A stretch of 64,000 nucleotides of DNA, from contig NZ_JACVXB010000005.1 in assembly GCF_014596945.1 (NCBI RefSeq), positions 124,001-188,000 of the forward strand. The letters are read 5' to 3'. Position 1 is the first letter of the stretch, and the number at the start of each line of letters is the position of its first letter. The DNA is from Aestuariibaculum sediminum (GTDB taxonomy: Bacteria; Bacteroidota; Bacteroidia; Flavobacteriales; Flavobacteriaceae). The notes below the pieces were generated by a model that was not told where the DNA came from, did no database searches, and was given only the letters and a program-made list of their open reading frames with translations. The translations under genes were made by a program, and so were the position numbers. Of the stretch, positions 1 through 23,426 are shown one piece after another.

Positions 1-3000
1 CCAAATATTTTAACTGAGAATTTAACTAATAACAACATTCCTTTTGCTTCCAAAGCGCAAAACCAGACAAAAGTTTCTACTCAAAAACTAAACATATCAG
101 GTATAATTACCGATATTAATAACCAACCTTTACCAGGTGCTACTGTACTTGAAAAAGGAACAACAAATGGAGCTCAAAGTGATTTTGATGGTAGATTTAG
201 CCTACAAATATCTAATCCCAATGCGGTTTTAGTAGTATCTTATATTGGTTTTAAAACCCAGGAAATTTCTATTGGAAACCAAACACAATTCAACATTAAA
301 TTAGAAGAAGATTCTGCAGTACTTGACGAAGTAGTTGTTGTAGGTTACGGTACGCAGCAAAAAGCAAATGTAACTGGAGCCGTTTCTCAAATTTCAGGAG
401 AAAAGTTACAATCAAGACCTGTAACAAATGTTTCTGCTGCATTACAAGGACAAATTCCAGGTGTAACCGTACAAGCACAAGGAGGTGCTCCTGGTGCAAA
501 TTCGGCTATTACCATTCGAGGCTTATCATCTTTAAACGGAGGAGGCGCCTTAGTAATTGTAGATGGTATTCCGGGAAACCTGAATAATGTTAACCCAGAT
601 GATATTGAGTCGATCTCTGTTCTAAAGGATGGTGCTTCGGCTGCTATTTACGGTTCGCGCGCTTCTGGCGGTGTTATTTTAATAACCACAAAAAAAGGAA
701 AAACAGGGAAAACAACAGTTACATACAATGGTAATTCTGCAATTCAAACCCCCACCATTGTACCTAAACAGCTAGATCCAATTGATTCTGCTATTTACGG
801 AAACCTGGCATTTGCTAATGCTGGCCGTGGTACGTTGTATCCTCAGTATGTTCTTGATGCGTTAAACGACCCGAATGTATCTGCTGTTGCAAATACGAGT
901 AACACCAGAGATTTCTTCTTTACAGGCGATTTCGATTGGACTGAGCATTTTTACAATTCAAGATTCCAACAAAACCATTCCTTAAGTATTGCTGGTGGTA
1001 GTGAACAAAACACCTATAATATTTCTGCTTCTTGGTTAGACCAAGATGGTTACTTTTCTAAATGGGGACCAGATAACTTCGACCGCTATACCTTTAGAGT
1101 TAATTTAAGCAATAAACTAATTCCAGAAAAATTAACATTAAACACCAATATTAGCTTAACATCGAACGACCGCCTACAATCTTCACTTCAAGCCGGTGTA
1201 ATACAGAGTGTTTTTCAAGCAGGTAGAAATCAAGAAATTTATGACCCTAATGGCAACTATTCTCGATACAGATTTCAGCAAAATACCCTGCAATTATTAC
1301 AGGAAGCTGGATTTGACGAAGACAAAACCCACAGAATGGAAGGTCGCTTAGGCCTGAACTGGAACGTTACAAAGGAGTTTTCGGTTGAAACCTTATTAGG
1401 TTACAATATTCAATGGCAAAAAGGAACCTTGTTCGGCCGTGGTTATTACAAACACAACACCGAAGGAGATATCGTCGATCCAAATGGTGTGCCCAGATGG
1501 GTAAACCAGCCAACCCGTGTTATTTTAAATAACGGCTACAACAGGTTTTACACCACCCAGGCCATTGCCAGATATAAAAAGTCATTCAACAAACACAATA
1601 TCGAGGTATTGGTGGGTGCTTCTGCTGAAGAATCGTATAACGAAACTAATTCTACACAACGCTTTAATATTAACGGAAACGAACTTGCCGCCCTAAATTT
1701 AGGTGATCCTGACACGGCACAAAACAGTTTTGGTATTGGAGAATGGGGAATTTTATCTCAATTTGGTAGAGCTGTTTATAGTTTCGACAATAAATACATT
1801 GTTGAAGGAACGTTTAGAAGAGATGGTTCTTCTAGATTTTCAGATGAAAATAAATGGGGATTCTTCCCTTCGGTATTGGCTGCATGGCGTGTAAGCAACG
1901 AGTCTTTCATGCAAAATATAAAGGCTATTTCTAATTTGAAATTAAAAGCATCTTATGGTGAAACTGGTAACCAAAGTGGTATTGGTCTTTACGATCATAT
2001 TAACACCATTACTCCAACAGGAAATTTATTATTACCCGATGGTGGAGGTATTCAACCCATTTACAGAAACCCTCAATTAGCATCTCAAGATCGAACTTGG
2101 GAAACCGTTAAATCTTTTAACTACGGAATTGAATTAGGCTTTTTAAGCAACAGATTACAAGGTGAATTTAACTATTTTGTTAAGCGTAATGAAAACATGT
2201 TAATTAACATCGATGTACCTTCAATTATAGGTATTGGTGTACCTACTAATAATAACGGTGAGTTAGAAACTAAAGGTTGGGATGCTCAAATTTCTTGGAC
2301 AGATACCGTTGAAAGTATTGGCCTTAAATATAGTATTGGTGCTAATATTTTCGATCAAACCGATAAAATTGTTTCTCTTGATCAGGAAACAGTTAACCTA
2401 GGTACAGGCATTAGAAACCTTCAAGGTTACCCTTCAAACGGTATCTTCGGATTTAGAACAAACGGCATATACCGAACTCAGGAACAATTCGACAACGGTG
2501 TTAGATTTAATAATGGCGTTGAAGAACTTGGAGACATCGAATACGTAGACATTGATGGCGATGGTCAAGTATCGAACAACCCAGACGACATCGCTTATAT
2601 TGGCGATTTAAAACCTAGATATGTTTACGGGTTTAACTTTAGTGCTGAATGGAAAAACTTTGATTTTTCGGCATTCTTCCAAGGCGTAGGTAAACGCAAT
2701 TATTATTTAAATGCAGATGCTGTTGGTCCATTTAGAAACCCATGGGACAACTGGGCATTTGCAGAACTAGGTGACTACTGGACACCAGACAACGTTAATG
2801 CCAAGTACCCAAGACCACTAGCCCGTGGTACTAACTTTAGATTCTCTGATTTCTGGATGCAGGATGCGTCTTACATCCGACTTAAAAACCTACAAGTAGG
2901 TTATAATCTTGCAGAAAAGCATTTAAGCAAAATAGGGTTTAAATCTTTTAGAATTTATTTCAGTGGTGAAAATCTTTGGGAAAAAACCAACCTGATTTTA

Positions 3001-3084
3001 TTCGACCCAGAAATAAATTCTTTAAATGGACGAGCATATCCATTAAACAGAAGTTACTCTTTAGGTATTAATGTTTCACTTTAA
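1..3084 (+). CDS. SusC/RagA-family TonB-dependent outer-membrane receptor (5' partial)
   Basis: This is the outer-membrane channel that imports oligosaccharides with its SusD lid and TonB energy. The reading frame is open from base 1, so the start and signal peptide lie outside the window. The visible part begins with a CarboxypepD_reg-like domain (roughly codons 33-105), then the SusC hallmark DEVVVVGYG at codons 109-117, then a plug domain containing TIRGLSS, VDGIPG and a LKDGASAAIYGSRASGG-like stretch. A long beta-barrel follows and ends in the aromatic-rich tail typical of outer-membrane barrels. A TTG at 835 is an internal codon and not the start. The SusD gene follows after nine bases. 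The fucosidase and sulfatase genes downstream suggest a fucose-containing glycan as substrate; that is inferred from context only. Confidence 0.95.
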   Translation, partial: PNILTENLTNNNIPFASKAQNQTKVSTQKLNISGIITDINNQPLPGATVLEKGTTNGAQSDFDGRFSLQISNPNAVLVVSYIGFKTQEISIGNQTQFNIKLEEDSAVLDEVVVVGYGTQQKANVTGAVSQISGEKLQSRPVTNVSAALQGQIPGVTVQAQGGAPGANSAITIRGLSSLNGGGALVIVDGIPGNLNNVNPDDIESISVLKDGASAAIYGSRASGGVILITTKKGKTGKTTVTYNGNSAIQTPTIVPKQLDPIDSAIYGNLAFANAGRGTLYPQYVLDALNDPNVSAVANTSNTRDFFFTGDFDWTEHFYNSRFQQNHSLSIAGGSEQNTYNISASWLDQDGYFSKWGPDNFDRYTFRVNLSNKLIPEKLTLNTNISLTSNDRLQSSLQAGVIQSVFQAGRNQEIYDPNGNYSRYRFQQNTLQLLQEAGFDEDKTHRMEGRLGLNWNVTKEFSVETLLGYNIQWQKGTLFGRGYYKHNTEGDIVDPNGVPRWVNQPTRVILNNGYNRFYTTQAIARYKKSFNKHNIEVLVGASAEESYNETNSTQRFNINGNELAALNLGDPDTAQNSFGIGEWGILSQFGRAVYSFDNKYIVEGTFRRDGSSRFSDENKWGFFPSVLAAWRVSNESFMQNIKAISNLKLKASYGETGNQSGIGLYDHINTITPTGNLLLPDGGGIQPIYRNPQLASQDRTWETVKSFNYGIELGFLSNRLQGEFNYFVKRNENMLINIDVPSIIGIGVPTNNNGELETKGWDAQISWTDTVESIGLKYSIGANIFDQTDKIVSLDQETVNLGTGIRNLQGYPSNGIFGFRTNGIYRTQEQFDNGVRFNNGVEELGDIEYVDIDGDGQVSNNPDDIAYIGDLKPRYVYGFNFSAEWKNFDFSAFFQGVGKRNYYLNADAVGPFRNPWDNWAFAELGDYWTPDNVNAKYPRPLARGTNFRFSDFWMQDASYIRLKNLQVGYNLAEKHLSKIGFKSFRIYFSGENLWEKTNLILFDPEINSLNGRAYPLNRSYSLGINVSL

Positions 3085-3093: not shown

Positions 3094-4695
3094 ATGAAAA
3101 AAATGAGAATTAAATATATATTAGCGATACTTGTGCTTAACATGACCATTGTAGGTTGTGACGACATATTAGACAAGTATCCACAAGACGAACTATCTGG
3201 ATCGGTATTCTGGAAAACCGAAAACGATTTTAAAGCTGTAGCCAACGATTTATATTCGGCTTACAATCTAATTTCAATCACAGACGGAAACTCTATAGAT
3301 TACTTTTCGAACAGCAATGTGAGTAGAGGGGCTCACGACGTCCCAAATACCGATGGTGTTTGGAACAGTGCTTACGCTATAATAAGACGTGCTAATTTTC
3401 TAATAGAAAGTGCAGAGACTTCAACAGTAGAAGAAACCATTAAGAACCGTTACATTGGAGAAGCACGTTATTTTCGAGGATTAGCTCACTTTTTACTGGT
3501 ACAACGTTACGGAGACGTACCTTTAGTTGAAACAACCTTAGATTTTTCAGAGCTTGAACCAGAAAGAGATTCCAGAGCAACAGTAATTAATAAAGTTGTT
3601 GAAGACATTGAATTTGCCGCTGCAAACCTACCAAATGCAACAGATGCTGCTGGAAGAGTTTCTAGAGGTGCTGCCTTAGGCATGTTAAGCAGAATAGGAC
3701 TGTACGAAGGTACTCATGCCAAATACCACAACTCAGGAAGCGATGCTAACACTTTATTAACAAAAGCCAAAAATGCAGCACAAACGGTAATAAGCGAGGC
3801 CAACTATTCGGTTTTCCAATCGCCTTTGGACGAAATTTTCTTTGATGCGAATCAAGATAATGATGAAGTTATTATTTCTATCGCTTATGACGAAAGTTAC
3901 ACCAATGTATCTCCAAGAGGAAGAGGTCATGTTATCGATGCGGTTCAAGACCCTACCAAATACTTAGCAGATGCTTTTTTATGTACCGACGGATTACCAA
4001 TAGATCAATCACCACTTTTCCAAGGTTATGGTTCCTTAACCACGGAGTTCGAAAACAGAGACCCTAGAATGACTTCTGTAATTTGGGAGCCTTACACTAC
4101 TTTCGACAACTCACCATTAGTTCCAGATTTAACCCGTACCTCTACCGGTTACTGGCCTAAAAAACCTGGAGACCCAATTGCACAGACTGTAACATTTGTT
4201 TACACCGATGTTATCATCATGAGATTGGCAGAAGTATTACTTAATTACGCTGAAGCAGCGTACGAATTAGATGGAAGTATTAGCGACAGCGATCTTGACT
4301 TTTCTATTAATAAACTACGAGACCGAGTTGGGATGGTTCATTTAACAAACAACCATGTTACCATTAATAATTTAGACATGAAAGAAGAAATTAGAAGAGA
4401 GCGTCGTATAGAATTATCTGGTGAAGGATTTAGATATAATGACATAATTAGATGGAAAACAGCCGAAAACGTACTAGCTAATGCTGTTTTAGGCGCTAAA
4501 TTCCAGCAATCGGATTATCCTAATTTAACCGTTGGAACCGACGTTAATTTAGACGCAGATGGATTTATAATTGCCGAAGATAGTAGTGTTAGAAATTTTG
4601 ATGCTTCCAAGCATTATTTGTTCCCATTACCATTAAGAGAATTAAATTTAAATCCAAACTTAGTGCAAAACCCTAATTGGGGAGGTAGCAACTAA
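3094..4695 (+). CDS. SusD/RagB-family glycan-binding lipoprotein
   Basis: This is the surface lipoprotein that caps the SusC channel and binds glycan. The N-terminus is a lipoprotein signal with lipobox IVGC (Cys22). The SusD pattern follows: an N-terminal helical region with YIGEARYFRGLAHFLL and RYGDVPL (about residues 125-150), TPR-like helices, and the C-terminal IRRERRIELSGEGFRYNDIIRW segment region near residues 435-455 found in nearly all SusD proteins. At 533 residues the length is usual. It sits nine bases after SusC, so the pair is co-transcribed, and a strong hairpin terminator follows at 4733. Met1 or Met4 could be the start. Sugar specificity cannot be read from the sequence. Confidence 0.95.
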   Translation: MKKMRIKYILAILVLNMTIVGCDDILDKYPQDELSGSVFWKTENDFKAVANDLYSAYNLISITDGNSIDYFSNSNVSRGAHDVPNTDGVWNSAYAIIRRANFLIESAETSTVEETIKNRYIGEARYFRGLAHFLLVQRYGDVPLVETTLDFSELEPERDSRATVINKVVEDIEFAAANLPNATDAAGRVSRGAALGMLSRIGLYEGTHAKYHNSGSDANTLLTKAKNAAQTVISEANYSVFQSPLDEIFFDANQDNDEVIISIAYDESYTNVSPRGRGHVIDAVQDPTKYLADAFLCTDGLPIDQSPLFQGYGSLTTEFENRDPRMTSVIWEPYTTFDNSPLVPDLTRTSTGYWPKKPGDPIAQTVTFVYTDVIIMRLAEVLLNYAEAAYELDGSISDSDLDFSINKLRDRVGMVHLTNNHVTINNLDMKEEIRRERRIELSGEGFRYNDIIRWKTAENVLANAVLGAKFQQSDYPNLTVGTDVNLDADGFIIAEDSSVRNFDASKHYLFPLPLRELNLNPNLVQNPNWGGSN

Positions 4696-4732
4696 TTCCA
4701 TAACATAAGTATTTGTTGAGTTAATTTCTTAA

Positions 4733-4771
4733 ACGAGCACCATTTGCTACGGCATGGTGCTCGTTTTTTTT
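4733..4771 (+). terminator. Rho-independent terminator after susCD
   Basis: An 11-bp perfect stem (ACGAGCACCAT at 4733-4743 with ATGGTGCTCGT at 4754-4764) and a 10-base loop are followed by eight T residues. It lies 37 bases after the SusD stop and separates susCD from the fucosidase operon. Confidence 0.9.
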
Positions 4772-4780
4772 ATGAAACCA

Positions 4781-4834
4781 TATACTAAAATTAAATATTT
4801 AGGGCATTAGCCCTAAATATTTAATTTTAGTATA
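4781..4834. promoter_or_regulatory. Perfect 25-bp palindrome upstream of the fucosidase operon, candidate TetR operator
   Basis: Arms 4781-4805 and 4810-4834 are exact reverse complements around the four-base spacer ATTA. The inner ten bases of each arm (TATTTAGGGC and GCCCTAAATA) are identical to the palindrome at 11564-11601, upstream of the TetR-type gene. The 3' end of the right arm runs into TATATTTA (4831-4838), which differs at one base from the Bacteroidetes -7 box TAnnTTTG, so a bound repressor would cover the promoter. No T-run follows, and a separate terminator lies just upstream, which argues against a terminator role. The operator assignment is inference. Confidence 0.7.
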
Positions 4835-4873
4835 TTTACAACCTGAAAGTGAATCTGAAAAACAAAAGAAATA

Positions 4874-6781
4874 ATGATATTGAAACATTTAAACCTCCTT
4901 ACTCTAGTTATTTTATTTTGCGCTGGCAACATTCATGCACAATGGTCTATTAAAGGAACAAAAACCGATAAAAACGCAAGATGGAACCACATTCAATTTT
5001 TTAGCGATAAAGATTGGAACTCCAGTAATTTTGCTTCAGAAAAAGACATGAAATGGTTTAACGATGCTAGATATGGTATGTTTATTCATTTCGGCCTATC
5101 GACATACATTAAAAAAGACCTTAGTTGGGGCATGTGCTATACCCGAAAAGCTCCTGACGGAGGTCATGGCCCGATTGCAGACTCGGTTTGGGTTACCTAT
5201 CCTGAACAATTCGAATTTAAAAATTTTGATGCTAAAAAATGGGTGCAAATTGCCAAAGATGCAGGTATGAAATACATTGTTACCATAGCAAAACATCATG
5301 ACGGATTTCATATGTGGGACACGAAATATTCCGATTTTAAAGTGACTAACACACCTTTTGGGCGCGATTATTTAAAAGAAATAGCTGATGCTTGTCATGA
5401 AGCCAATATGAAATTTGGTATTTACTATTCACAACGTGACTGGTATCACCCCGATTACGCCCCAATTGACACCTCTTTAGTTGTTAGACAAAATGAAGCG
5501 CCTTATTACAGGCCAAAACCTGAAGTTGATAAAGTGTTACCTGGACCAACTCATGAAAAGTATAAAGAATACCAGTTTAATGTGGTTAGAGAATTATGCA
5601 CTAACTACGGAAAAGTAGATGTTTTTTGGTTCGATGCCTCTTGGTGGGGCGGAATGTTTACCGCAGACATGTGGGATTCTGAAGCGCTTACCAGAATGAT
5701 ACGCGAATTACAACCAGGCATAATTATTAACAACCGTGCTTCCATACCTGGCGATTTCGATACACCAGAACAAAAAATAGGCATGTATCAAGAACGACCT
5801 TGGGAAAGCTGTATCACCTTAACGCATTCTTGGTCGTATTCTGATACACCACCGAAATCGAAAGAAAATATCATTAAAATGATAACCTCTACAGCCTGCG
5901 GAAACGGCAACATGCTCCTCAGCTGGGGATCAAAATGGGATGGTGCTTTTGATCAGGATGAAGTAGAACGCCTGGAAGAGGTTGGTAAATGGATGAAAAG
6001 CTACGGACAATCGATTTACAATACAAAAGGCGGACCGTGGTATCCTCAAAAATGGGGAGGCAGTACCTACCAAAACAAAACCATTTATTTACATATTACC
6101 AATAAATCGCTTAATTCTTTAAAACTACCAGGGATAGCTTCAAAAATTAAAAAAGCTAAGGTGTTAACTGGAGGCGAAATAAGTTTTACCCAAAATAAAT
6201 CGGAAATAGTATTTAATCTTTCAGAAGTAAATAAAACGGAAGAAACGATTATTATTGAACTTACCTGCAAAAAGACTATTACTGGTATGTTTGGCTCTGA
6301 GCTTTCTAATTCGTTATTTTCAGATCCTTCATACGGTAACATTATATCTAACAATGCAACATTTACATTAAGCTCTCAATCTGATGAAGATGATTCGAAA
6401 TTCCATAGTTTATTGTTTTCAAACAAACTTTTTAATAGTCCTTTTGCATTTCATACGAAAGAAGAAAAAGAGTCTTATACCGTCGTCGACTTAGGGAAAA
6501 ATTATACTGTTAAGGGGGTCGATATTTTTAATCAGAAACATTATTTAACTAAGGATCTTAATTTTAGTGTTCTTATTTCTAAAGATGGGAATAACTGGAA
6601 AAAAGTTGAAGATAAAAAAGGTAGCTTTTATCACTGGGAGGTGCCTGTAACCCAATTTAATGCTGGCATTGAATTACCAGGGGTAGAGACCAGATTTATA
6701 AAAATAGTGGTTACCTCATCAAATCCAGCCGCACTTCATCTTAAAAAGATTCAAGTTTACGGTACAGATATTGATAATTAG
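4874..6781 (+). CDS. GH29 alpha-L-fucosidase with C-terminal F5/8 type C domain
   Basis: This enzyme is predicted to hydrolyse terminal alpha-L-fucose from oligosaccharides, probably in the periplasm. A signal peptide ends near NIHAQW (residue 24). The GH29 barrel begins with WFNDARYGMFIHFG; other family blocks are IAKHHDGFHMW and GIYYSQRDWYHPDY. VFWFDAS carries the expected nucleophile Asp254. A galactose-binding-like F5/8 type C (discoidin) domain occupies about residues 500-635 (YTVVDLGKNYTVKGVDIF, RFIKIVV), which suggests glycan docking. It is the first gene after the terminator and palindrome, and appears to start the operon running to 11521. A family with relaxed specificity cannot be excluded, but the GH29 assignment is firm. 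Confidence 0.93.
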   Translation: MILKHLNLLTLVILFCAGNIHAQWSIKGTKTDKNARWNHIQFFSDKDWNSSNFASEKDMKWFNDARYGMFIHFGLSTYIKKDLSWGMCYTRKAPDGGHGPIADSVWVTYPEQFEFKNFDAKKWVQIAKDAGMKYIVTIAKHHDGFHMWDTKYSDFKVTNTPFGRDYLKEIADACHEANMKFGIYYSQRDWYHPDYAPIDTSLVVRQNEAPYYRPKPEVDKVLPGPTHEKYKEYQFNVVRELCTNYGKVDVFWFDASWWGGMFTADMWDSEALTRMIRELQPGIIINNRASIPGDFDTPEQKIGMYQERPWESCITLTHSWSYSDTPPKSKENIIKMITSTACGNGNMLLSWGSKWDGAFDQDEVERLEEVGKWMKSYGQSIYNTKGGPWYPQKWGGSTYQNKTIYLHITNKSLNSLKLPGIASKIKKAKVLTGGEISFTQNKSEIVFNLSEVNKTEETIIIELTCKKTITGMFGSELSNSLFSDPSYGNIISNNATFTLSSQSDEDDSKFHSLLFSNKLFNSPFAFHTKEEKESYTVVDLGKNYTVKGVDIFNQKHYLTKDLNFSVLISKDGNNWKKVEDKKGSFYHWEVPVTQFNAGIELPGVETRFIKIVVTSSNPAALHLKKIQVYGTDIDN

Positions 6782-6829
6782 AAGTCTTATGCTTTATCAA
6801 ACAAAAAACATAAATCAAAATACAGTACA

Positions 6830-7885
6830 TTGAAACAATTCTTAATCGCTATAGCCACAATATTCACTACAGTCATGGTATACGGCCAGAATATGACATC
6901 CTTCGCCGACCAATGGGAGTTTATTGGTACTGCCATTAATGAACCAGGATATACTATTTGGGGTACATCACCTATTATGGATGAAGACGGTCATGTTCAT
7001 TTGTTCGTTGCAAGATGGCCATGCGAACTAAATGTAGATCCAGGTTGGCGTACGCATAGTGAAATTGCTCATTATATAGGAGACAATCCCGAAGGTCCTT
7101 TTAAATTTTCAGATATAGTAGTAGAAGGCGATATTAATATTATAACTGAATCTACTCAATCTATAAAAAAAATATACGCACCTCATAATCCAACGATTAA
7201 AAAGATTAACGACCAATATGCTCTACTTTATATTGTAAATACCGGAATTGAAAAACATCCATCAAATCAATATATCTGTATGGCGGTTTCAAAAAGTTTA
7301 AATGGTCCTTGGAAAAAAGTTGGAGATAATGGTAAAATACTTGACACACCTAATAACCCCGAATATTGGAATTATAAGGCAACTAACGGCGTAAATAACC
7401 CTACGCTGCTGCAACACCCTAACGGCGGCTATTTTTTATATTTTAAATCTGAAAAAGCCAAAATGGGCTTAGCGATTGCTGAAAACCTTTCAGGCCCATA
7501 CATCCAAATGCCTTTTCCTGTAACAGCCAACAACCAATCTATTGAAGATGGTTACGCTTTTGTGTACAATAATCAGTTTTGCCTACTTACAACAGACAAC
7601 CATGGCATTATTGAATCTGGTGGTGGTATTCTTTGGAAATCTGATGATGGCATTCATTTTAACGATTACGAAAAAGGATTTCATCGTATAAACCAATATA
7701 CCAACATTAATATGAAAGACGTTGCCGTGCATTATGGCCCAAAAAACAGAACTTATGCAAAATTTGAACGCCCTCAAATTTTATTTCAAAATAACCAACC
7801 TGCATATGTATATATGCCATCAGGCACCAACATTTTTGGAGGTGATTGCACCGTAAGTTACATTCTGAAATTCAAAGAAAATTAG
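6830..7885 (+). CDS. Secreted five-bladed beta-propeller glycoside hydrolase-like protein
   Basis: The 351-residue protein has a signal peptide (MKQFLIAIATIF...VYGQ) that is complete only if the TTG at 6830 is the start, so TTG is chosen. Repeated propeller-blade patterns are visible: IWGTSPIMDEDGHVHLFVARW near residue 45, YAPHNPTIKK near 120, GVNNPTLLQHPNGGYFLYF near 190, and DGYAFVYNNQFCLL near 230. They resemble the GH43/GH117/GH130-type fold with acidic residues at blade starts. It lies between two fucosidases, so it probably acts on the same glycan, perhaps on a non-fucose or anhydro-sugar linkage. The exact family cannot be set by eye, and a lyase or binding role is possible. Confidence 0.7.
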   Translation: MKQFLIAIATIFTTVMVYGQNMTSFADQWEFIGTAINEPGYTIWGTSPIMDEDGHVHLFVARWPCELNVDPGWRTHSEIAHYIGDNPEGPFKFSDIVVEGDINIITESTQSIKKIYAPHNPTIKKINDQYALLYIVNTGIEKHPSNQYICMAVSKSLNGPWKKVGDNGKILDTPNNPEYWNYKATNGVNNPTLLQHPNGGYFLYFKSEKAKMGLAIAENLSGPYIQMPFPVTANNQSIEDGYAFVYNNQFCLLTTDNHGIIESGGGILWKSDDGIHFNDYEKGFHRINQYTNINMKDVAVHYGPKNRTYAKFERPQILFQNNQPAYVYMPSGTNIFGGDCTVSYILKFKEN

Positions 7886-7927
7886 AACAACTCAAATTGA
7901 AAAATATACTTTAGAAACAAATTCATC

Positions 7928-9325
7928 ATGGCTAAAAAATTATCCTTAGGTATTTATTTTATTTTATTATTTGCGAGCAGTATGTTAGCTCAAAACGATT
8001 ATAAAGTTCCAATTCCCACTCAAGCACAATTAGACTGGCAAAACTCTGAATTGGTTGCTGTATTTCATTACGATCTTCACGTTTTCGACAATAAGAAGTA
8101 CAACCAGAAAGAAAACAGAATTACACCTATAGAAGACATTAATGTTTTTAATCCAGAACAACTAGACACAGACCAATGGATAAAATCGGTTAAAGATGCA
8201 GGGTGTAAAATTGCCATTTTAACAGCTACGCACGAAACAGGTTTTGCCCTTTACCAAAGCGACGTTAACCCTTATTCACTAAAAGCAGTTAAATGGAGAG
8301 ATGGCAAAGGTGATATTGTAAAGGATTTTGTAGAATCATGCAGAAAATATGGTGTAAAACCAGGAATATACATTGGAATTCGTTGGAATTCATTTTTTGG
8401 GATTCACGACTTTATGGTAGAAGGAGACAGCGATTTTGCCAAAAACAGACAAGAATACTATAACCGCATGTGCGAAGGCATGGTAGATGAACTAATGTCT
8501 CGTTATGGCGATTTAGCTATCGTATGGTTCGATGGCGGCGCCCATGGGCCGGAAAAAGGCGGCGCTGATATTTTACCAATTGCAGAAAAATATCAAAAGA
8601 GCATTGTTTTTTATCACAATACGCAAAGAGCTGATATTCGTTGGGGTGGTAGTGAATCTGGCACTGTGCCCTACCCTTGTTGGGGTAACTATCCGTTTCC
8701 TTACTCACATTCAACGAATCAAGAAGTTATTTTTAAAAACAACTTTCAGTTATTAAAAACAGGAGATTCTAATGGAAAATTTTACATGCCTGCTATGAGT
8801 GATGCGCCGTTAAGAGGCTACAATGGTCGCCATGAGTGGTTTTGGGAACCAAACGACGAAGCTCACGTTTTTCCTCTGAAAAATTTAATGCACATGTATT
8901 ACAATTCGGTGGGACACAACTCTTCATTAATTCTTGGAATAACTCCAGATCCAAACGGTCTTGTTCCTGAACCAGATGTAAAACGTCTTAAAGAATTCGG
9001 TGACAACATTAAACGCAATTTTTCAAATCCGATAGCGCGCACTTCAGGAAACAAAACGAAACTCACAGTAAAATTACCTTCTACACAGAAGATCAATCAA
9101 ATTGTACTTACTGAAGATATTACTCAGGGTGAACGTGTTAGAAAGTTTATTTTGGAAGGAAGAACAAAACAAGGTTGGAAAACTATTTTCGAAGGCTCAT
9201 GTATCGGACATAAATTTATTCATAAATTCGATGACATAGATGTCTCTCAAGTACGTTTAAAAATAACCGCAGCTCAAGATAAACCTTTAATAAAATCATT
9301 TGAGATATTTCACCTTACCGACTAA
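7928..9325 (+). CDS. GH29 alpha-L-fucosidase (second copy, divergent subgroup)
   Basis: This is a second secreted alpha-L-fucosidase, shorter than the first (465 residues) and lacking the discoidin domain. The signal peptide ends near MLAQND. The GH29 blocks are ILTATHETGFALYQS, then GVKPGIYIGIRW, then LAIVWFDGGAHG with predicted nucleophile Asp202. NSSLILGITPDPNGLVPEPDVKRLKEFG marks the end of the barrel (about residues 335-360), followed by a C-terminal beta domain. The ITPDPNGL and REFG-type ending resembles the subgroup that prefers internal alpha-1,3/4 fucosyl branches, but that is inference. It sits 42 bases after the propeller gene and 11 before the esterase, in one operon. Confidence 0.9.
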   Translation: MAKKLSLGIYFILLFASSMLAQNDYKVPIPTQAQLDWQNSELVAVFHYDLHVFDNKKYNQKENRITPIEDINVFNPEQLDTDQWIKSVKDAGCKIAILTATHETGFALYQSDVNPYSLKAVKWRDGKGDIVKDFVESCRKYGVKPGIYIGIRWNSFFGIHDFMVEGDSDFAKNRQEYYNRMCEGMVDELMSRYGDLAIVWFDGGAHGPEKGGADILPIAEKYQKSIVFYHNTQRADIRWGGSESGTVPYPCWGNYPFPYSHSTNQEVIFKNNFQLLKTGDSNGKFYMPAMSDAPLRGYNGRHEWFWEPNDEAHVFPLKNLMHMYYNSVGHNSSLILGITPDPNGLVPEPDVKRLKEFGDNIKRNFSNPIARTSGNKTKLTVKLPSTQKINQIVLTEDITQGERVRKFILEGRTKQGWKTIFEGSCIGHKFIHKFDDIDVSQVRLKITAAQDKPLIKSFEIFHLTD

Positions 9326-9336
9326 AATATTAAGTC

Positions 9337-10035
9337 ATGTTTAAAATACGTTTACTATATATACCAGTTGGTTTAGTAGCTTTTCTGCTCCTAGCTTGCT
9401 CTCCGCAAAAAACTAAAACGATAGCCTGTATTGGCGATAGCATTACGTTTGGAGCCAGACTCGAAAACCCAATTCAGGATTCTTATCCATCCAAATTACA
9501 GTCTCTGCTTGGAACAAATTATAACGTCATTAATTTTGGAGTAAGCAGTTGCACGCTTATTCGAAAAGGCAGCCCTAATGTTTGGCAACAGCTGGAAAAC
9601 ATAAGAGAGTCACAGCCAGACCTTGTTGTTATAAGTTTAGGAACCAACGACACTTGTGGTATGGGCACCTGTGGCTCAAGAGTATGCTGGGAGCATAACG
9701 ATGAATTTGAGTCAGATTACGTTGATTTGATTCATGAATTTAAAAAAATCCCTTCACACCCTGAAATTTATATTTGTGCACCAACCCCCATGGTATTGGA
9801 AACGCCAGGGTTAAATAACGAACGCATACAAGGCTTAACTATTAGAAAACCACGTTTACAAAAATTAATAAGCATCATTCGGGCAGTGGCTAAAAAAGAG
9901 CAAGTTAACTTTATAGATTTAAACACACCATTAAATCATAAGCCTGAATTTTTCACTGTAAAAGATGGCGTTCATCCAAATAAAAAAGGCTATCTAGCTA
10001 TAGCTGAAATAGTAGCGAAAGCCATAAAGGAATAA
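9337..10035 (+). CDS. SGNH/GDSL-family esterase lipoprotein
   Basis: This is a predicted carbohydrate esterase, probably removing O-acyl groups from the imported glycan before the fucosidases act. The N-terminus is a lipoprotein signal with Cys21 after FLLLA. SGNH block I is GDSITFG with catalytic Ser35, block III is LGTNDTC, and block V is DGVHPN with Asp210 and His213. An insert rich in Cys (CGMGTCGSRVCW) follows block III, which might form disulfides. The 232-residue length is normal. It is tightly packed between a fucosidase and a sulfatase. The acyl group cannot be inferred from sequence. Confidence 0.85.
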   Translation: MFKIRLLYIPVGLVAFLLLACSPQKTKTIACIGDSITFGARLENPIQDSYPSKLQSLLGTNYNVINFGVSSCTLIRKGSPNVWQQLENIRESQPDLVVISLGTNDTCGMGTCGSRVCWEHNDEFESDYVDLIHEFKKIPSHPEIYICAPTPMVLETPGLNNERIQGLTIRKPRLQKLISIIRAVAKKEQVNFIDLNTPLNHKPEFFTVKDGVHPNKKGYLAIAEIVAKAIKE

Positions 10036-10057
10036 ACTGATTTAACACCACCCAAGT

Positions 10058-11521
10058 ATGATGACAAAGAACATAGCGTTGGCAACTATATCAGTATTTA
10101 TAGCCTTATCCTGCTTTTCTCAAAAGAATAAAAATTCAAATGCAAACAAACCTAATATTGTATTTATTCTAGTTGATGATTTAGGATGGGCCGATTTAGG
10201 ATATTCGGGAAGCTCTTTTTACGAAACACCAAATATCGATGATTTAGCAGCTAACGGAATTGTTTTTAACAATGCCTATTCTGCTTGCCCCGTATGCTCT
10301 CCTGCTCGAGCCTCAATTTTGACAGGAAAAACGCCTGCACTATTAAACCTTACAGATTATCTTCCAGGAAACAGACATTATGGTCCACATAAAGATCAGA
10401 TGTTAACCTCCCACCCATTTGCTACACATCTCGAATTAAACGAATACACCCTTGCTGAATGCTTAAAGGATGCGGGGTACAAAACAATGATGGCAGGTAA
10501 ATGGCATTTAGCCGAAGAACAAAAATACTATCCTCAATTTCAAGGATTTGACATCAATATTGGCGGTAATAAAACAGGACATCCTGCAGCAGGTTATTTT
10601 TCACCTTATAAAAACCCAGAGCTAACGGATGGTTATGAAGGCGAATATTTAACCGATCGTTTAACTGACGAGGTTATTCATTTTATTGAGCAAAATAAGA
10701 AACAGCCGTTCTTCGCTTATTTGTCGTTTTACACGGTGCATTTACCTATGCAGGGAAAACCCGATAAAGTTAAAAAATACCAACAGAAGTTAAATACAAT
10801 TAATAAATCCAATGAAGAATTTGTTAAAAATGGTAAAACATGGGTAAAACAGCAACAAAATATGCCACATTTTGCAGCCATGGTCGAAAGTATGGATGAA
10901 AATGTAGGGCGTATTTTGGAAACTTTAAAGCGACTTCAACTGGATGAAAATACTATAGTCCTTTTCACATCCGATAATGGCGGCATGGCAACAAGCAATC
11001 GTACGGACAATATTCCAACAAGTAATTTACCTTTAAAAGCCGGTAAAGGATATTTATATGAAGGCGGCATACGCGTACCTCTTATCATTAAGAATGGGAA
11101 AAAATATAAAGGTCAAATATGTGAAACACCTGTTTCTGGTATAGATTACTACCCCACCCTGTTAGATTTAGCTAACATAAAAAACAGGATACCATATGAT
11201 ATAGAAGGTGTTAGTTTGAAACCGCTGTTAAGTAAAAAACCAATCAATGAAAGGCCGATTTTTTGGCATTACCCGCATTATAGTGGAGGTCTTGGAGGCA
11301 CGCCTTCTGGCGCAGTTCGGCTTGGAGATTATAAATTGATTGAATTTTATGAAGATATGCATATTGAATTATATAACGTTAAACAAGACTTAAGTGAAGA
11401 GCATAATCTTGTAAATCGATACCCGAAAAAAATGCAAGAGCTTAAAACGCTTCTACATGAATGGCGAAAAAATGTGGAAGCATTAATGCCCTACCCAAAC
11501 CCAAATTATATAGCAGATTGA
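10058..11521 (+). CDS. Type I (formylglycine) sulfatase, S1 family
   Basis: This enzyme is predicted to remove sulfate esters from the sugar substrate. It has a signal peptide with a possible lipobox ending at Cys19. The core begins with PNIVFILVDDLGWADLGYSG, carrying the metal-binding Asp pair near residues 40-41. The maturation signature is C-S-P-A-R with Cys80 as the residue converted to formylglycine. FTSDNGG and LYEGGIRVPLIIK are further sulfatase blocks. Its position directly after two fucosidases suggests that sulfated fucose is the target. Maturation needs an anSME- or FGE-type enzyme, and none was found in this window. ATG codons at 10058 and 10061 are both possible starts. Confidence 0.92.
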   Translation: MMTKNIALATISVFIALSCFSQKNKNSNANKPNIVFILVDDLGWADLGYSGSSFYETPNIDDLAANGIVFNNAYSACPVCSPARASILTGKTPALLNLTDYLPGNRHYGPHKDQMLTSHPFATHLELNEYTLAECLKDAGYKTMMAGKWHLAEEQKYYPQFQGFDINIGGNKTGHPAAGYFSPYKNPELTDGYEGEYLTDRLTDEVIHFIEQNKKQPFFAYLSFYTVHLPMQGKPDKVKKYQQKLNTINKSNEEFVKNGKTWVKQQQNMPHFAAMVESMDENVGRILETLKRLQLDENTIVLFTSDNGGMATSNRTDNIPTSNLPLKAGKGYLYEGGIRVPLIIKNGKKYKGQICETPVSGIDYYPTLLDLANIKNRIPYDIEGVSLKPLLSKKPINERPIFWHYPHYSGGLGGTPSGAVRLGDYKLIEFYEDMHIELYNVKQDLSEEHNLVNRYPKKMQELKTLLHEWRKNVEALMPYPNPNYIAD

Positions 11522-11563
11522 TGTCTTTGTACTTCGATTTACATTAGGTTCTTTTAAATTCGC

Positions 11564-11601
11564 AATACACTATTTAGGGCAAATGCCCTAAATAGTGTAT
11601 T
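11564..11601. promoter_or_regulatory. Perfect 17-bp palindrome upstream of the TetR-type gene, candidate operator
   Basis: Arms 11564-11580 and 11585-11601 are exact reverse complements around AAAT. The core TATTTAGGGC, four bases, GCCCTAAATA is shared with 4781-4834. A T-run (11600-11608) follows, so transcripts from the sulfatase could also terminate here. The -7 box at 11610-11617 directly follows, consistent with an autoregulatory operator. Confidence 0.7.
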
Positions 11602-11609
11602 TTTTTTTA

Positions 11610-11617
11610 TATATTTG
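11610..11617 (+). promoter_or_regulatory. Predicted -7 promoter element for the TetR-type gene
   Basis: TATATTTG matches the Bacteroidetes -7 consensus TAnnTTTG exactly and lies 20 bases before the ATG at 11638. No clear TTG was seen at -33; that position is inside the palindrome's right arm. Confidence 0.5.
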
Positions 11618-11637
11618 CCTAATCCACCTAAACATAG

Positions 11638-12243
11638 ATGAATACAAAACAAAAAATCATAAACCAAGCAATTTCACTTTATAATGAGCTTGGTCTCCGC
11701 AATGTTACAAGTAGAGATATTGCTAAAAAAATAGGTATTAGCCATGGAAACCTCGAATATCATTTTCCAACAAAAGAAGATCTCTTATTGGCTATTTATG
11801 AAAACATGCGAAACGAAATTTCTATCGTTTACGAAATAGAAGACATATCTAAAGATCCTATTTTACAATTTAATGAGCTTCTTTTACACTTAGAAACATT
11901 TCAGTCGAAGTACCTATTTTTCAATTTAGATGTTTTAGAAATTTCTAGGAATTTTCCGAATATAAATAACCTTTTAAAATCCACATTAAGAGTTAGACGC
12001 ACGCAAATGACGCACTTTTACAAACGTTTTAAATCCTATGGCTATCTAAAAGATGAAATCATTCCCGGAAATTATTTAAGGCTCCAACATACGATTCGCA
12101 TTCTTATTACCTTTTGGAATTCGCAACAAGAAATATTTCCAAAATTCACTTCAGAACAAGATCCGAGGTTAGCAACTTACGTCTGGGAGCTTGTATTGCC
12201 ACATCTTACTGAAAAAGGTAAATTAAAATATCATAAACTTTAA
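11638..12243 (+). CDS. TetR/AcrR-family transcriptional regulator
   Basis: This is a 201-residue DNA-binding regulator. Its N-terminal helix-turn-helix spans about residues 24-43 (TSRDIAKKIGISHGNLEYHF), followed by KEDLLLAIYENM, the TetR_N pattern. The C-terminal three-quarters is a divergent helical ligand and dimer domain. It sits between the glycan-degrading operon and the fucose catabolism genes and starts five bases before the symporter, so it is co-transcribed with the catabolic genes. A natural model is that it senses L-fucose or a catabolic intermediate and represses both transcription units through the two shared palindromes. The effector is unknown, and an activator role cannot be excluded. 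Confidence 0.88.
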   Translation: MNTKQKIINQAISLYNELGLRNVTSRDIAKKIGISHGNLEYHFPTKEDLLLAIYENMRNEISIVYEIEDISKDPILQFNELLLHLETFQSKYLFFNLDVLEISRNFPNINNLLKSTLRVRRTQMTHFYKRFKSYGYLKDEIIPGNYLRLQHTIRILITFWNSQQEIFPKFTSEQDPRLATYVWELVLPHLTEKGKLKYHKL

Positions 12244-12248
12244 ATTAA

Positions 12249-13847
12249 ATGAATTCTATCCATATATTCGACTTACTAGTCATTGTTGTTTACATAATAG
12301 GCATAGTACTTATAGGCCTTTGGTATTCGCGTAAAAAAAAGAAAACTAGCGAAGGCTATTTTTTAGCTGGCAAAACTTTAACGTGGTCTGTTATAGGCGC
12401 GTCGCTCTTTGCTTCCAATATCTCGACCGTACACTTGGTTGGTTTTGCCGAATCAGGATTTAGAGAAGGTTTAGTTTGGGGAAATTTCGAATGGTTTTCG
12501 GCGTTTGAACTTTTAATCTTAGCCTTTGTATTTATTCCATTCTACCTTAGAACCAAAATAACAACCCTGCCCGAGTTTCTTGAAAAACGTTATGACGGAC
12601 GCTCTCGTATTATTCTGGCTATTTTTAGTATTCTAGCTGCTCTCTTTATGCACATTGGTGTAAGTTTTTATGCCGGGGCAGTAGTTTTTGATTATATCTT
12701 TGGAATTGATATTTGGATATCTATTCTTATTATAGCTATAGCAACCGGTATTTATACGGTTATTGGCGGCTTATCTTCCGTAGTAATCACAGAAACTGTA
12801 CAAACGATTATTTTAATTTTTGGATCTTTAATTATCCTGATTTTGGCCATATTAAAACTACCAGAAATCGGAATTCATTCCTACGAAGCATTGAAGGAAG
12901 CTGTAGATCCAGACCGATGGAACGCCGTAGGTTTTAATCCTGAAAAAACTGGTTTTACGTTTAGTGATATTCTTCTAGGTCATCTAATTTTAGGTATATG
13001 GTATTGGTGTACAGATCAAACTATTGTGCAACGCGCTTTAGGAGCAAAATCAGAACAACAGGCAAAACTAGGAGCCATATTTGCGGGTTTCCTGAAAATT
13101 CTACCAGTTTTTCTAATGATTGTTCCTGGCATTTTGGCTTTTGCATTATTTCATGATCAAATTGGAGACGACACCAAGAACGTATTACCCATTATGATTA
13201 TGGAATTAATGCCTTTAGGTCTTAAAGGACTTATGATTGCCGCCTTGCTAGCTGCCGTAATGAGTAGTGTGGCCGCCGCCCTTAACAGTTGTTCGACTCT
13301 AATTGTATACGATGTTTTTGAAAAAATAAAACCAGGACTAAACGATAAAACCAAAATAAAAATCGGAAGAATTACAGGCGTAACAGTACTTACACTTGCG
13401 ACAATTTGGTCACCTTTTTTAGGAAATCTAGGCGCCATATTCGAACTCATAAACCAAATGTTTAGCATTTTTGCGCCATCAATCGTAGCTGTTTTTCTTT
13501 GGGGTATTATTTACCGAAAAGGAACAGCCAATGCGTCATTTGCTACACTTTTAATTGGAAGTTTGTTTGCTGGAGCCGTTTTCTTAATTGAAAAATACGC
13601 CACTATTAATGGTATCTCAAATTTTATTTCAAATTCAGAAGGACTTGGAATAAACTGGTTAAGACAAACCTATTTGTTTTTTGTAATTTCTTCGGCAATC
13701 TATTTTATCGTTTCCTATTTTGACACCTCGAACCAAAATGTATCTGGCGAATTTTACTTGAAAATAAAGAACCCATCAACTGTAGTAAATATTTCCGCCA
13801 TTACGTTAGTCGTTATCATGTTAATTATATATACAATATTTTTCTAA
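12249..13847 (+). CDS. Sodium:solute symporter (SSS/SLC5 family), probable L-fucose uptake
   Basis: This inner-membrane sodium-coupled sugar symporter has 532 residues and many hydrophobic segments, as expected for 13-14 helices. Family features include DLLVIVVYIIGIVLIGLWYS at the N-terminus, GYFLAGKTLTWSVIGASLFASNIS near residues 35-60, and the sodium-symporter signature region around AALLAAVMSSVAAALNSCST (about residues 330-350). The gene follows TetR by five bases and is followed by the mutarotase, dehydrogenase and dehydratase for L-fucose, so uptake of L-fucose is the likely job. The sugar is inferred from neighbours; other monosaccharides are possible. Confidence 0.9.
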   Translation: MNSIHIFDLLVIVVYIIGIVLIGLWYSRKKKKTSEGYFLAGKTLTWSVIGASLFASNISTVHLVGFAESGFREGLVWGNFEWFSAFELLILAFVFIPFYLRTKITTLPEFLEKRYDGRSRIILAIFSILAALFMHIGVSFYAGAVVFDYIFGIDIWISILIIAIATGIYTVIGGLSSVVITETVQTIILIFGSLIILILAILKLPEIGIHSYEALKEAVDPDRWNAVGFNPEKTGFTFSDILLGHLILGIWYWCTDQTIVQRALGAKSEQQAKLGAIFAGFLKILPVFLMIVPGILAFALFHDQIGDDTKNVLPIMIMELMPLGLKGLMIAALLAAVMSSVAAALNSCSTLIVYDVFEKIKPGLNDKTKIKIGRITGVTVLTLATIWSPFLGNLGAIFELINQMFSIFAPSIVAVFLWGIIYRKGTANASFATLLIGSLFAGAVFLIEKYATINGISNFISNSEGLGINWLRQTYLFFVISSAIYFIVSYFDTSNQNVSGEFYLKIKNPSTVVNISAITLVVIMLIIYTIFF

Positions 13848-13849
13848 AA

Positions 13850-14440
13850 ATGACAGATATACAGACTAATAAATATTGTTACGCTGGATATTCTCCACAA
13901 AAAAAATTTGAAAAATGGTCAGGTAATCAAAACGACCTGAACGCTTATTGCCTAGAAAATGTTACGTTTGTAATTAATACTTCAATAACAACAAAAAAAA
14001 ACGATTTACAACCTTATTTTTTGGATGTATTTGGTCCATTAAAATGTATATTTAAAAAGCCGGAAACAGATATAAATAAAGATCTGGTAACAAAAAATAA
14101 AACATTTGTATTTACCCTAAAATTAAAGCAAGACCCCTATCTTTTAAAGGAATACATTAACATACATAAGCCTGAAGCTGTTTGGCAGGAAATTATTAAA
14201 AACATGGACACCATGGGGGTTTTGAACATGGAACTTTTCCTTCATGAATATCGTGTATTCATGATTATGACTACAATTGAAAAATTTAATGCAGATACTG
14301 CTTTTAAGCAATGGAGCTCATTACCCAGAGAAAAAGAATGGCAAAACTACGTTTCAAAATTCCAACATGTTGATGATCAGGAAAAAATTCTGGAAAAGTG
14401 GCGCATAATGAAACCAATACAAAAAATCAATGAATATTAA
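13850..14440 (+). CDS. RhaM/FucM-type L-fucose mutarotase domain with N-terminal extension
   Basis: The C-terminal 110 residues match the COG3254 mutarotase family that interconverts alpha and beta forms of L-fucose or L-rhamnose. They show FTLKLKQDPYLLKEYINIHKPEAVW (about residues 85-110), GVLNMELFLHEYRVFMIM, and the terminal EKW-like segment with MKPIQKI. The His of IHKP corresponds to the conserved active-site His. Residues 1-84 are an extra domain that I do not recognise; mutarotases usually have about 105-115 residues. The gene starts two bases after the symporter and overlaps the next by 11 bases. Context (L-fuconate dehydratase) favours L-fucose. Confidence 0.75.
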   Translation: MTDIQTNKYCYAGYSPQKKFEKWSGNQNDLNAYCLENVTFVINTSITTKKNDLQPYFLDVFGPLKCIFKKPETDINKDLVTKNKTFVFTLKLKQDPYLLKEYINIHKPEAVWQEIIKNMDTMGVLNMELFLHEYRVFMIMTTIEKFNADTAFKQWSSLPREKEWQNYVSKFQHVDDQEKILEKWRIMKPIQKINEY

Positions 14441-15506
14441 ACAACATATCAATATACCAACCACTTCTCGCCCTATCGTAATAATTGGAGCCGGAGGTAT
14501 TATTAAAGATGCTCATTTACCTGCCTACGAGATAGCAGGATTTAAAGTCTTGGGGATATTTGATATTGACAATAGTAAAGCTAAAGAGCTGCAATCTTCA
14601 TTTGAAATAGTTAATCAGGCCTACCTCTCAGTCGATGATGCTATAAACGATGCTGTTAAGCATAATGCCATATTCGACATAGCGATTCCTGCATCGAAGT
14701 ACTTGGAAATACTAAAAATGCTACCAAAAGGTGCTACAGTACTGCTACAAAAACCTTTAGGAGAAACCTTAAAAAACGCTAAGGAAATTCATTCTCTTTG
14801 CGAAGCAAAAAACATAACAGCTGCCGTAAATTTTCAATTGCAGTTTGCGCCTTATATAATAGCAGCCAAACACTTAATAAACGAAGGCTCACTTGGGACG
14901 GTTTACGATATGGAACTCATGGTTAACGTAAATACGCCTTGGCATTTATGGGATTTCCTATTCGATTTACCTCGCGTTGAAATTCTTTATCACAGCATTC
15001 ATTATTTTGACCTGATACGCGGATTTTTAGGCAATCCAGAAAAAGTTTATGCCAGCACCAGAAAACACCCAAAAATGCAAGAGCTGGCTTCAACGCGAAC
15101 CACAGCTATTTTAGATTACCCAAATAATGTTCAAGCCCGAATAATAACAAATCACGGGCATGATTTCGACACAAAACACCAAGCTTCTTATCTCAAAATT
15201 GAAGGCACCGAAGGTGCTATTTATATCCAAATTGGCGTTTCACTAGACTACCCAAATGGGAAACCTCCTAAATTTGAGTATTATCTCAATTCTGAGCCTG
15301 AAAAAGGCTGGCAGGAACTTGCATTAGAAGGCAAATGGTTTCCTCATGCTTTTATAGGTACTATGGCAACGCTTCAAAATTATTGCATTGATAAAAGCAC
15401 AACAATGCCACATAGTATTAATAAAGCACTGGATACAATGAAATTAGTTGAAGCGGCTTACATCTCAAATGCTTCGGGCGGCACTCTATTTGAAACTATA
15501 AAATAA
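14430..15506 (+). CDS. Gfo/Idh/MocA-family NAD(P)-dependent oxidoreductase, candidate L-fucose dehydrogenase
   Basis: The cytoplasmic 358-residue protein has an N-terminal Rossmann fold (IVIIGAGGIIKDAHLPAY near residue 17) and the family motif QKP, where the Lys of EKP is kept and Glu is replaced by Gln (LLQKPLGET, about residue 105). The C-terminal alpha/beta substrate domain contains YHSIHYFDLIRGF, with a His at the usual catalytic position. It overlaps the mutarotase gene and precedes L-fuconate dehydratase. Oxidation of L-fucose to the lactone or acid is the missing step between those two proteins, so this is the best candidate. Most known L-fucose dehydrogenases belong to other families, so the step is inferred. 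Confidence 0.8.
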   Translation: MNIKQHINIPTTSRPIVIIGAGGIIKDAHLPAYEIAGFKVLGIFDIDNSKAKELQSSFEIVNQAYLSVDDAINDAVKHNAIFDIAIPASKYLEILKMLPKGATVLLQKPLGETLKNAKEIHSLCEAKNITAAVNFQLQFAPYIIAAKHLINEGSLGTVYDMELMVNVNTPWHLWDFLFDLPRVEILYHSIHYFDLIRGFLGNPEKVYASTRKHPKMQELASTRTTAILDYPNNVQARIITNHGHDFDTKHQASYLKIEGTEGAIYIQIGVSLDYPNGKPPKFEYYLNSEPEKGWQELALEGKWFPHAFIGTMATLQNYCIDKSTTMPHSINKALDTMKLVEAAYISNASGGTLFETIK

Positions 15507-15576
15507 ATTAACGAATTGTAAAAAGTTTGTGTTTTTAAACAAACACATCCTAAAAAAATAAAAGAATAAACCTAAA

Positions 15577-16806: not shown

Positions 16807-16820
16807 TACAATTACAAAAA

Positions 16821-16957
16821 AAGAGGCTATCTAAAAAGTCGCAAAACTTGTGTCAGTCTGAATTTATTTCAGAATTTCATATCGTTAAGTATCATATTTA
16901 ATGAGAACCTGAATCAAGTTCAGGTTGACTAAAGTTGTCCTTTTTAGATAACCTCTT
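16821..16957. repeat. 137-base imperfect inverted-repeat element between convergent genes
   Basis: Outer arms 16821-16838 and 16940-16957 pair with one mismatch over 18 bases. The homology continues inward: the left half around 16850-16880 and the reverse complement of 16900-16930 share a GTCA..CTGAA..TT...TTCAG pattern. Each half holds its own small palindrome (TCTGAA/TTCAGA at 16857-16873; AACCTGAA/TTCAGGTT at 16906-16926). A T-run follows on the plus strand. It sits between fucD and the convergent DUF1080 gene, so it probably terminates transcription from both sides. The nested layout resembles a mobile intergenic repeat; whether other copies exist cannot be seen here. Confidence 0.75.
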
Positions 16958-16985
16958 CTTTTTTTTAGTTTATAATTTTTATAAT

Positions 16986-17750: not shown

Positions 17751-17754
17751 CTAT

Positions 17755-18807: not shown

Positions 18808-18821
18808 TTTGCTGTAGATTT

Positions 18822-19967: not shown

Positions 19968-20006
19968 ACTACATTTATTTTAAATTATACTATTTAAAAA
20001 ACACGA

Positions 20007-21215: not shown

Positions 21216-21240
21216 TCAATGCTTATTTAGTCGTGGTGCG

Positions 21241-22197: not shown

Positions 22198-22307
22198 TGG
22201 TTATTTACATTAATTATTGTGAAAATAAAAAATCAACAACCAATTTCTGTTTATTTTTATTCAGTGAAAGAATTTATACAACTAAAAAAACAACACGTCT
22301 TCTTTCT

Positions 22308-23336: not shown

Positions 23337-23362
23337 TGAAAAAAAATGAACATTAATTATGT

Positions 23363-23380: not shown

Positions 23381-23426
23381 CTATAAATAAAAATTTCACT
23401 TCAACAAATTCCAACTAAAACCAATA

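Follow-up and report, generated by a model that had tools for sequence, protein, structure and literature searches.

How might the genes for uptake, release and breakdown of the algal sugar L-fucose be switched on together in a marine member of the Bacteroidota? The question is raised by a locus of Aestuariibaculum sediminum (assembly GCF_014596945.1, contig NZ_JACVXB010000005.1), in which the gene of a TetR-family regulator lies among genes for a SusC/SusD pair, two GH29-type alpha-L-fucosidases and L-fuconate dehydratase (FucD). The stretch that was analysed, here called the window, comprises 64,000 nucleotides (contig positions 124,001 to 188,000, forward strand). From the sequence alone, an initial annotation had noticed two perfect palindromes with an identical core, one before the fucosidase operon and one before the regulator gene, and had proposed a fucose regulon. 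Our analysis supports this proposal: the site is unique to the locus and is kept with the fucose operon in nine further genomes in which the regulator has an orthologue. The palindromes are very probably operators of the TetR-family protein, which would repress three promoters until a metabolite derived from L-fucose releases it.

Three copies of a palindromic core at one locus

When the sequence was re-read, both palindromes were present as described. The first is perfect over 25 + 4 + 25 bases (4781-4834), and one further pair gives it arms of 26; the second, likewise perfect, measures 17 + 4 + 17 (Table 1). Common to the two is a 24-base core, TATTTAGGGC-N4-GCCCTAAATA. At up to three mismatches this core matches twice in the window, against 0.02 matches expected from shuffling, and in the whole genome of 4,043,315 bases it matches at the same two window places only. 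The initial count of two copies thus stands for the 24-mer, in the window and genome-wide, but not for a shorter core, TTAGGGC-N4-GCCCTAA, the part that is kept in relatives. This shorter core has three exact copies in the 4.04-Mb genome, two inside the window palindromes and one to the left of the window.

The third copy, AAAAAATTAGGGCTTTCGCCCTAATTTTTT (contig C17:123447-123464; L056:11447-11464), begins 554 bases before the window and lies upstream of susC, 422 bases before the start of that gene; to its left, the closest reading frame is directed away. The three exact sites span 12,144 bases, a closeness whose chance is roughly 2.7e-05, and there is one site for each of three operons, as presumed from gene order and spacing: susCD, GH29-GH43like-GH29-GDSL-sulfatase and tetR-SSF-rhaM-GFO-fucD. 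Control of SusCD by the TetR protein, for which there had been no direct evidence, both palindromes lying after susD, gains support from this site and from susC sites with two mismatches in two further genomes. About 400 bases separate the susC site from the susC start (L056:11465-11868; C17:123465-123868), and the distance at a susC gene of a related genome, G050, is similar (490). So long a leader could hold control at the RNA level.

Imperfect matches to the short core in the A. sediminum genome number 15 at up to two mismatches (7 for a reversed control pattern) and 95 at up to three, which is the control level (87). Since such matches lie near the control level, we claim only the exact sites and no further targets; a place with one mismatch in C3 was rejected because it falls inside a reading frame (L101). 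The core is not scattered over many unrelated places, the 24-mer occurring at two and the short core at three, all in one locus, and on these counts we reject a dispersed palindromic repeat of the repetitive extragenic palindromic (REP) kind.

The -7 consensus of the Bacteroidota is TAnnTTTG. A -7 box had been placed beside each palindrome; that of the tetR operon, TATATTTG, fits the consensus, and that of the GH29 operon, TATATTTA, is one base off. At all five Aestuariibaculum sites (three here, two in A. suncheonense) TATATTT(A/G) follows the core at 14-18 bases, so that a bound repressor would cover the expected -33 region. Drawn from 16 sites in ten genomes, the motif reads TTAGGGC-AnnT-GCCCTAA with A/T-rich flanks; five imperfect members were picked by similarity, which makes their contribution partly circular.

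Conservation of the site with the fucose operon

In a family sample of 397 genomes, 42 have a match to the TetR protein at E <= 1e-15. Gene context was looked at for nine of these, which have 45% identity or more, and in eight of the nine (G000, G115, G162, G050, G270, G203, G250 and G257) the orthologue is linked to genes for an SSF symporter and FucD; the G021 protein and a second G250 copy have other surroundings. Further orthologues are found in a Maribacter metagenome-assembled genome (MAG; L035) and in G711, a member of a different family and the sole match at 1e-45 among 100 genomes sampled from that family. The orthologue is rare: it was detected in 7 of 395 genomes of the class sample (1e-40), 4 of 395 of the order sample (1e-45, none new), two of five genomes of its own genus and two of 14 in the genus of G050. 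Besides our own, the class-level loci examined were those of G711, G470, G548 and G604 (G450 and G631 were left out); the stretches from the last three hold no SSF or FucD matches and no sites at up to three mismatches.

More distant TetR relatives (30-36% identity) were rejected as the same system: none of seven scanned loci (L012-L018) has a TTAGGGC-type palindrome, and four (L012, L015, L016 and L018) have other palindromes, of TTAGTAA type. The core is therefore not a trait of TetR regulators at large. A paralogue of the regulator, 47-48% identical, occurs at L063:8145-8828 and L064:8801-9466 in surroundings without SSF or FucD matches. In L063 the next gene is of the pyrroline-5-carboxylate-reductase type and a related site, ATAGTGC-N4-GCCCTAA, lies 270 bases upstream; L064 has no site.

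The exact site occurs in seven of the 397 family genomes, with three copies in G000, two in G115 and one each in G162, G050, G270, G040 and G262; a reversed control pattern matches in two genomes. It is present in five of the eight genomes with a fucose-linked TetR orthologue as against two of the other 389 (Fisher p = 1.4e-08, falling in strength to 5.1e-07 when the discovery genome is left out; the genomes are related, so these values are guides only). The initial annotation had held that a palindrome not conserved upstream of orthologues would speak against the regulon. We found the core upstream of the fucose operon in nine other orthologue genomes, exact in six (G115, the Maribacter MAG, G162, G270, G050 and G711), with two mismatches in G203 and G257, and with four in G250.

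We then compared 19 upstream regions of 500 bases, three of them from A. sediminum, with 1000 dinucleotide shuffles each. Ten of the 16 regions from other genomes matched at a level that no shuffle reached, namely the seven exact ones and the two-mismatch sites of G050 susC, G257 susC and the G250 paralogue tetR. The G203 GH95-SSF and G257 SSF regions stood at one in 1000 shuffles and the G250 SSF region at 61. No site was found in this test in the other three regions, those before tetR in G050, G250-C6 and G021.

The site goes with the first gene of the operon and not with tetR. It stands before SSF or GH95-SSF in G050, G203, G257 and G711, and tetR comes last, after fucD, in G203, G250, G257 and G711, where no site directly before it would be needed (of these four, G250 was the one tested). 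The two-mismatch sites before susC in G050 and G257 accompany SusC proteins that are only 38% (415 aligned residues) and 33% (1049) identical to that of A. sediminum. In G203 a two-mismatch site precedes a GH95 gene, which is followed by SSF. G711 has two exact sites. One stands before SSF; the other is followed, some 200 bases on, by a GH95-type gene that is truncated (L098:8799-9482) and whose 227-residue product shares an N-terminal domain with the complete GH95 protein of G203. According to PMC10154630, fucosidases occur in both GH29 and GH95.

Operator, terminator or both

The regulator has a TetR_N helix-turn-helix and an all-helical ligand domain, as expected of its family. Its modelled structure best matches, in Foldseek, the TetR-family structures 3rh2 (4.8e-07) and 3nnr (1.8e-06); the model was built from three sequences and has a mean predicted local distance difference test (pLDDT) score of 67.6, too weak for discussion of the ligand pocket. 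A palindrome at its own or a neighbouring promoter is kept with its orthologues, the exceptions being the lone tetR of G050 and the weak site of G250. We propose that the protein, presumably as a dimer, binds TTAGGGC-N4-GCCCTAA at the susCD and GH29-sulfatase promoters and at its own tetR-SSF-rhaM-GFO-fucD promoter. There it would occupy the stretch immediately before the -7 box, the expected place of a -33 element, and block transcription. Fucosidases would release L-fucose, the SSF symporter would import it and oxidation would follow; a pathway intermediate (L-fucose, L-fuconate or a keto-deoxy derivative) would then bind the repressor and free the three promoters together. In this way one circuit would join uptake through the outer membrane to the fucosidases, the symporter and the dehydratase. 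A cytoplasmic repressor would make the locus report sugar already taken up and not the surface glycan.

Several observations weigh against this model. The G250 site is weak, with 61 of 1000 shuffles as good, and the lone tetR of G050 is without a site (908 of 1000 shuffles as good), a real exception to the presumed autoregulation. G040 and G262, which belong to one genus and lack the orthologue, carry the exact site. Their core has a TTCG loop (L066:3048-3065 and L067:2682-2699) and is followed seven bases on by TATATTTG. In G040 it lies between DeoC-type and histidine-phosphatase-type genes near smpB (Pfam was run on L066 only), and the frames that flank it in G262 have the same lengths as those in G040; it could be a terminator-like element, the site of another regulator, or chance. 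Matches at up to two mismatches are mostly at control level genome-wide (18 against 21 in G257, 3 against 13 in G711), so that an imperfect site carries weight only through where it lies. The places examined were those among the matches listed, with none from G162, G250 or G021 and part of those from G257; two two-mismatch places in G270, one in G050 and a one-mismatch place in G470 were rejected as targets, since they fall inside reading frames.

The promoters of relatives are a further difficulty. A -33 element was not identified at the sites, and TAnnTTTG at 14-18 bases is missing from all ten sites that other genomes contribute, G040 and G262 set apart. It lies at 6-7 bases in G162 and at the G257 SSF site, both G050 sites have a box one base off at that distance, and six of the ten have no -7 box near. 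Either the promoters of relatives differ, or boxes were missed. Nor is the regulon complete. Contig C11 (L106, C11:327001-347000) holds, at 8791-18796, genes for a RhaM-type protein, two short-chain dehydrogenases/reductases (SDRs), an Amidohydro_2 lactonase and an FAA hydrolase, together with GH29-type, GH43-like and galactarate/altronate-type dehydratase genes beside an AraC regulator gene. The lactonase, SDR, FAA-hydrolase and rhaM genes fit the remaining oxidative fucose steps, and the TetR operator is absent from this 20-kb stretch at up to three mismatches. The regulon therefore does not cover the whole pathway, which seems to be split between two regulators.

Could the operator sites also end transcription? 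Beyond the core, the 11 exact-core regulon sites differ in how far they pair. In six, perfect pairing goes on for 8, 19 and 10 further steps (A. sediminum), 11 (A. suncheonense sulfatase operon), 12 (G162) and 8 (G270). Perfect arms that differ in their letters are more than chance, and a dimer on the core would not by itself account for them. They speak for a dual role, in which the core is the repressor operator and the outer arms of some copies have been extended or selected into a hairpin that ends read-through from upstream; at the 11564 site, no other hairpin is listed between the sulfatase gene and the palindrome. However, the A. suncheonense tetR, Maribacter MAG, G050 SSF, G711 SSF and second G711 sites pair for only 0, 4, 4, 0 and 1 steps, and four of these five have a co-directional upstream gene. 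The longest palindrome, that before GH29, is without a proper T-run, and no gene reads into the susC site. The short extensions indicate that long arms are not what is conserved, and we regard a dual role as possible but doubtful; the 11564 site may also terminate transcription. A wider view is offered tentatively: in marine Bacteroidota, a one-component TetR repressor that senses a cytoplasmic L-fucose intermediate would govern the whole SusCD locus, the fucosidases and the catabolic operon, and would have spread as a portable module, its operator having been gained by unrelated susCD pairs and by both GH29 and GH95 families, and some copies having been extended into terminating hairpins that join insulation to repression.

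Binding of the sites by another regulator is very improbable, as is a mobile palindromic repeat. The link of the TetR protein to the site is one of co-occurrence, and the window contains an AraC gene (22308-23414), but the window AraC protein matched none of the reading frames in the fucose loci examined from relatives, and the TetR orthologue accompanies the sites in different genera and in a second family. Three exact copies in the genome, at one locus, are also unlike a dispersed repeat.

Folding bears on the last alternative, that the palindromes are intrinsic terminators of the upstream operons and that the shared core is coincidental or marks a conserved type of terminator. For the 11564 site the folding energy is -25.5 kcal/mol (z -8.57); a T-run follows directly, and a consensus scan rates the site as terminator-like. 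T-rich tails follow the susC site and the A. suncheonense sulfatase-operon site, and G040 and G262 share the core with a TTCG loop, in G040 between housekeeping-type genes. Palindrome 1 with its extra pair folds at -32.9 kcal/mol, but the scan lists it on a loose tail, TATATTTACA, which is no true T-run. As the initial annotation had noted, it follows a separate presumed terminator, a 13-bp stem leading into a T-run, which the scan did not list, probably because of its 10-base loop. At the susC site the nearest frame on the left points away. With its flanks, the A. suncheonense tetR site reaches -10.9 kcal/mol, and four imperfect sites (core pieces only) lie between 0.0 and -7.1; those of G203 (-0.2) and G257 SSF (0.0) hardly fold, yet most of their half-sites are kept. 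A terminator does not depend on a particular sequence; here, however, the arms change but the core persists from genus to genus and in a second family. An operator fits better than a terminator, given that conservation does not extend to the outer arms and that imperfect copies show little folding, and it accounts for all regulon sites where a terminator accounts for some only. On the folding, pairing and shuffle results we reject a pure terminator as the main role, which is very unlikely, and keep termination as a possible second one.

Gene content and comparison with known systems

The features of the locus are collected in Table 1. SusC has Plug and CarboxypepD_reg domains. L-fucose is the presumed substrate of both the SSF symporter, which would take it up, and the GFO/IDH/MocA protein, which would act as L-fucose dehydrogenase. 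FucD is similar end to end to the solved enzymes and, when aligned to 1yey/2hne (residues 9-408), retains KLKVG, DANQ, EEPT, GEH and PH, which we take to be the KxK, D/E/E and H active-site segments. In A. suncheonense the homologue of the sulfatase (L033:8622-9902) is split into two frames. A separate cluster at 16986-31294 of the window, with 3-keto-disaccharide hydrolase, sugar-isomerase-like, GFO/IDH/MocA, MFS, GMC oxidoreductase, Gluconate_2-dh3 and AraC genes, resembles a 3-keto-glycoside pathway.

Table 1. Features of the A. sediminum fucose locus, in window positions
Feature	Position	Strand	Basis or remark
susC (3' part)	1-3084	+	open reading frame; gene begins 132 bases before the window (L056:11869-15084, 1071 amino acids)
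susD	3094-4695	+	PF07980, PF14322
Presumed intrinsic terminator of susCD operon	4731-4771	+	13-bp stem, 10-base loop, T-run
Operator 1 (predicted)	4780-4835	.	perfect palindrome; core TTAGGGC-ATTA-GCCCTAA at 4799-4816
-7-like box TATATTTA of GH29 operon	4831-4838	+	one base off consensus; overlaps edge of operator 1
GH29 alpha-L-fucosidase with F5/8 type C domain	4874-6781	+	PF01120 4.2e-73
GH43-like protein, weak match	6830-7885	+	PF04616 1.4e-05, below curated cut-off
Second GH29-type alpha-L-fucosidase	7928-9325	+	PF01120 2.1e-30
GDSL-type esterase	9337-10035	+	PF13472
Sulfatase	10058-11521	+	PF00884 1.9e-62
Operator 2 (predicted)	11564-11601	.	core TTAGGGC-AAAT-GCCCTAA at 11574-11591; terminator-like score too
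-7 box TATATTTG of tetR operon	11610-11617	+	fits TAnnTTTG
TetR-family regulator, predicted repressor	11638-12243	+	PF00440 1e-11, PF13972 7e-16, both over curated cut-offs
SSF-family sodium:solute symporter	12249-13847	+	PF00474 7.6e-73; TIGR00813
Protein with C-terminal rhaM (mutarotase) domain	13850-14440	+	PF05336 1.5e-16, residues 86-190 of 196
GFO/IDH/MocA oxidoreductase	14430-15506	+	PF01408, PF22725
L-fuconate dehydratase (FucD), enolase superfamily	15577-16806	+	phmmer to solved FucD 1yey/2hne/2hxt ~1e-98, to human ENOSF1 4a35 3e-109

The proposed regulon would provide a regulator, an operator and a list of targets for the use of L-fucose, and probably of fucoidan-derived glycan, in marine Bacteroidota. 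The exact site, found in so few family genomes, is specific enough to serve as a marker for further fucose genes, such as the GH95-type gene of G711.

SusCD loci have mostly been ascribed to hybrid two-component or sigma/anti-sigma control. Under the usual sigma/anti-sigma control an STN domain would be expected at the N terminus of SusC; none is reported in this SusC at E <= 0.001 (Pfam). Among the titles and abstract openings listed in our literature search, whose coverage was partial and does not prove absence, none described a TetR-type protein that controls fucose use or a SusCD locus. GusR/UidR, the TetR-family repressor of glucuronide use in Enterobacteria, is sugar-responsive, as the A. 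sediminum protein would be; it differs in sugar, phylum and operator and is not known to be associated with SusCD. The oxidative L-fucose pathway of Xanthomonas campestris comprises genes for FucD, a lactonase, an SDR and a hydrolase. The A. sediminum genes are alike in that FucD belongs to the regulon and Amidohydro_2 lactonase-type, SDR and FAA-hydrolase genes stand in the second cluster; they differ in the SSF transporter, in the presumed GFO/IDH/MocA dehydrogenase and in being divided between two clusters with different regulator genes.

The Xanthomonas pathway is named in PMC5507952, a comparative prediction of FucR sites in the organisms of a microbial-mat consortium. There, Algoriphagus marincola HL-49, also of the Bacteroidota, has an oxidative fuc locus, without FucD, unlike the locus described here; the word TetR does not occur in the main text of that paper. 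A further parallel is FucR of Bacteroides thetaiotaomicron (BT1272), a local protein devoted, as the predicted repressor would be, to the regulation of L-fucose use; its DNA motif is present at the fuc operon (PMC3878776). FucR is a GntR protein whose regulon is a single operon for a sugar transporter and cytoplasmic catabolic enzymes (PMC3878776), whereas a TetR protein would take this part in A. sediminum. We regard the locus as probably a new regulon of a known kind.

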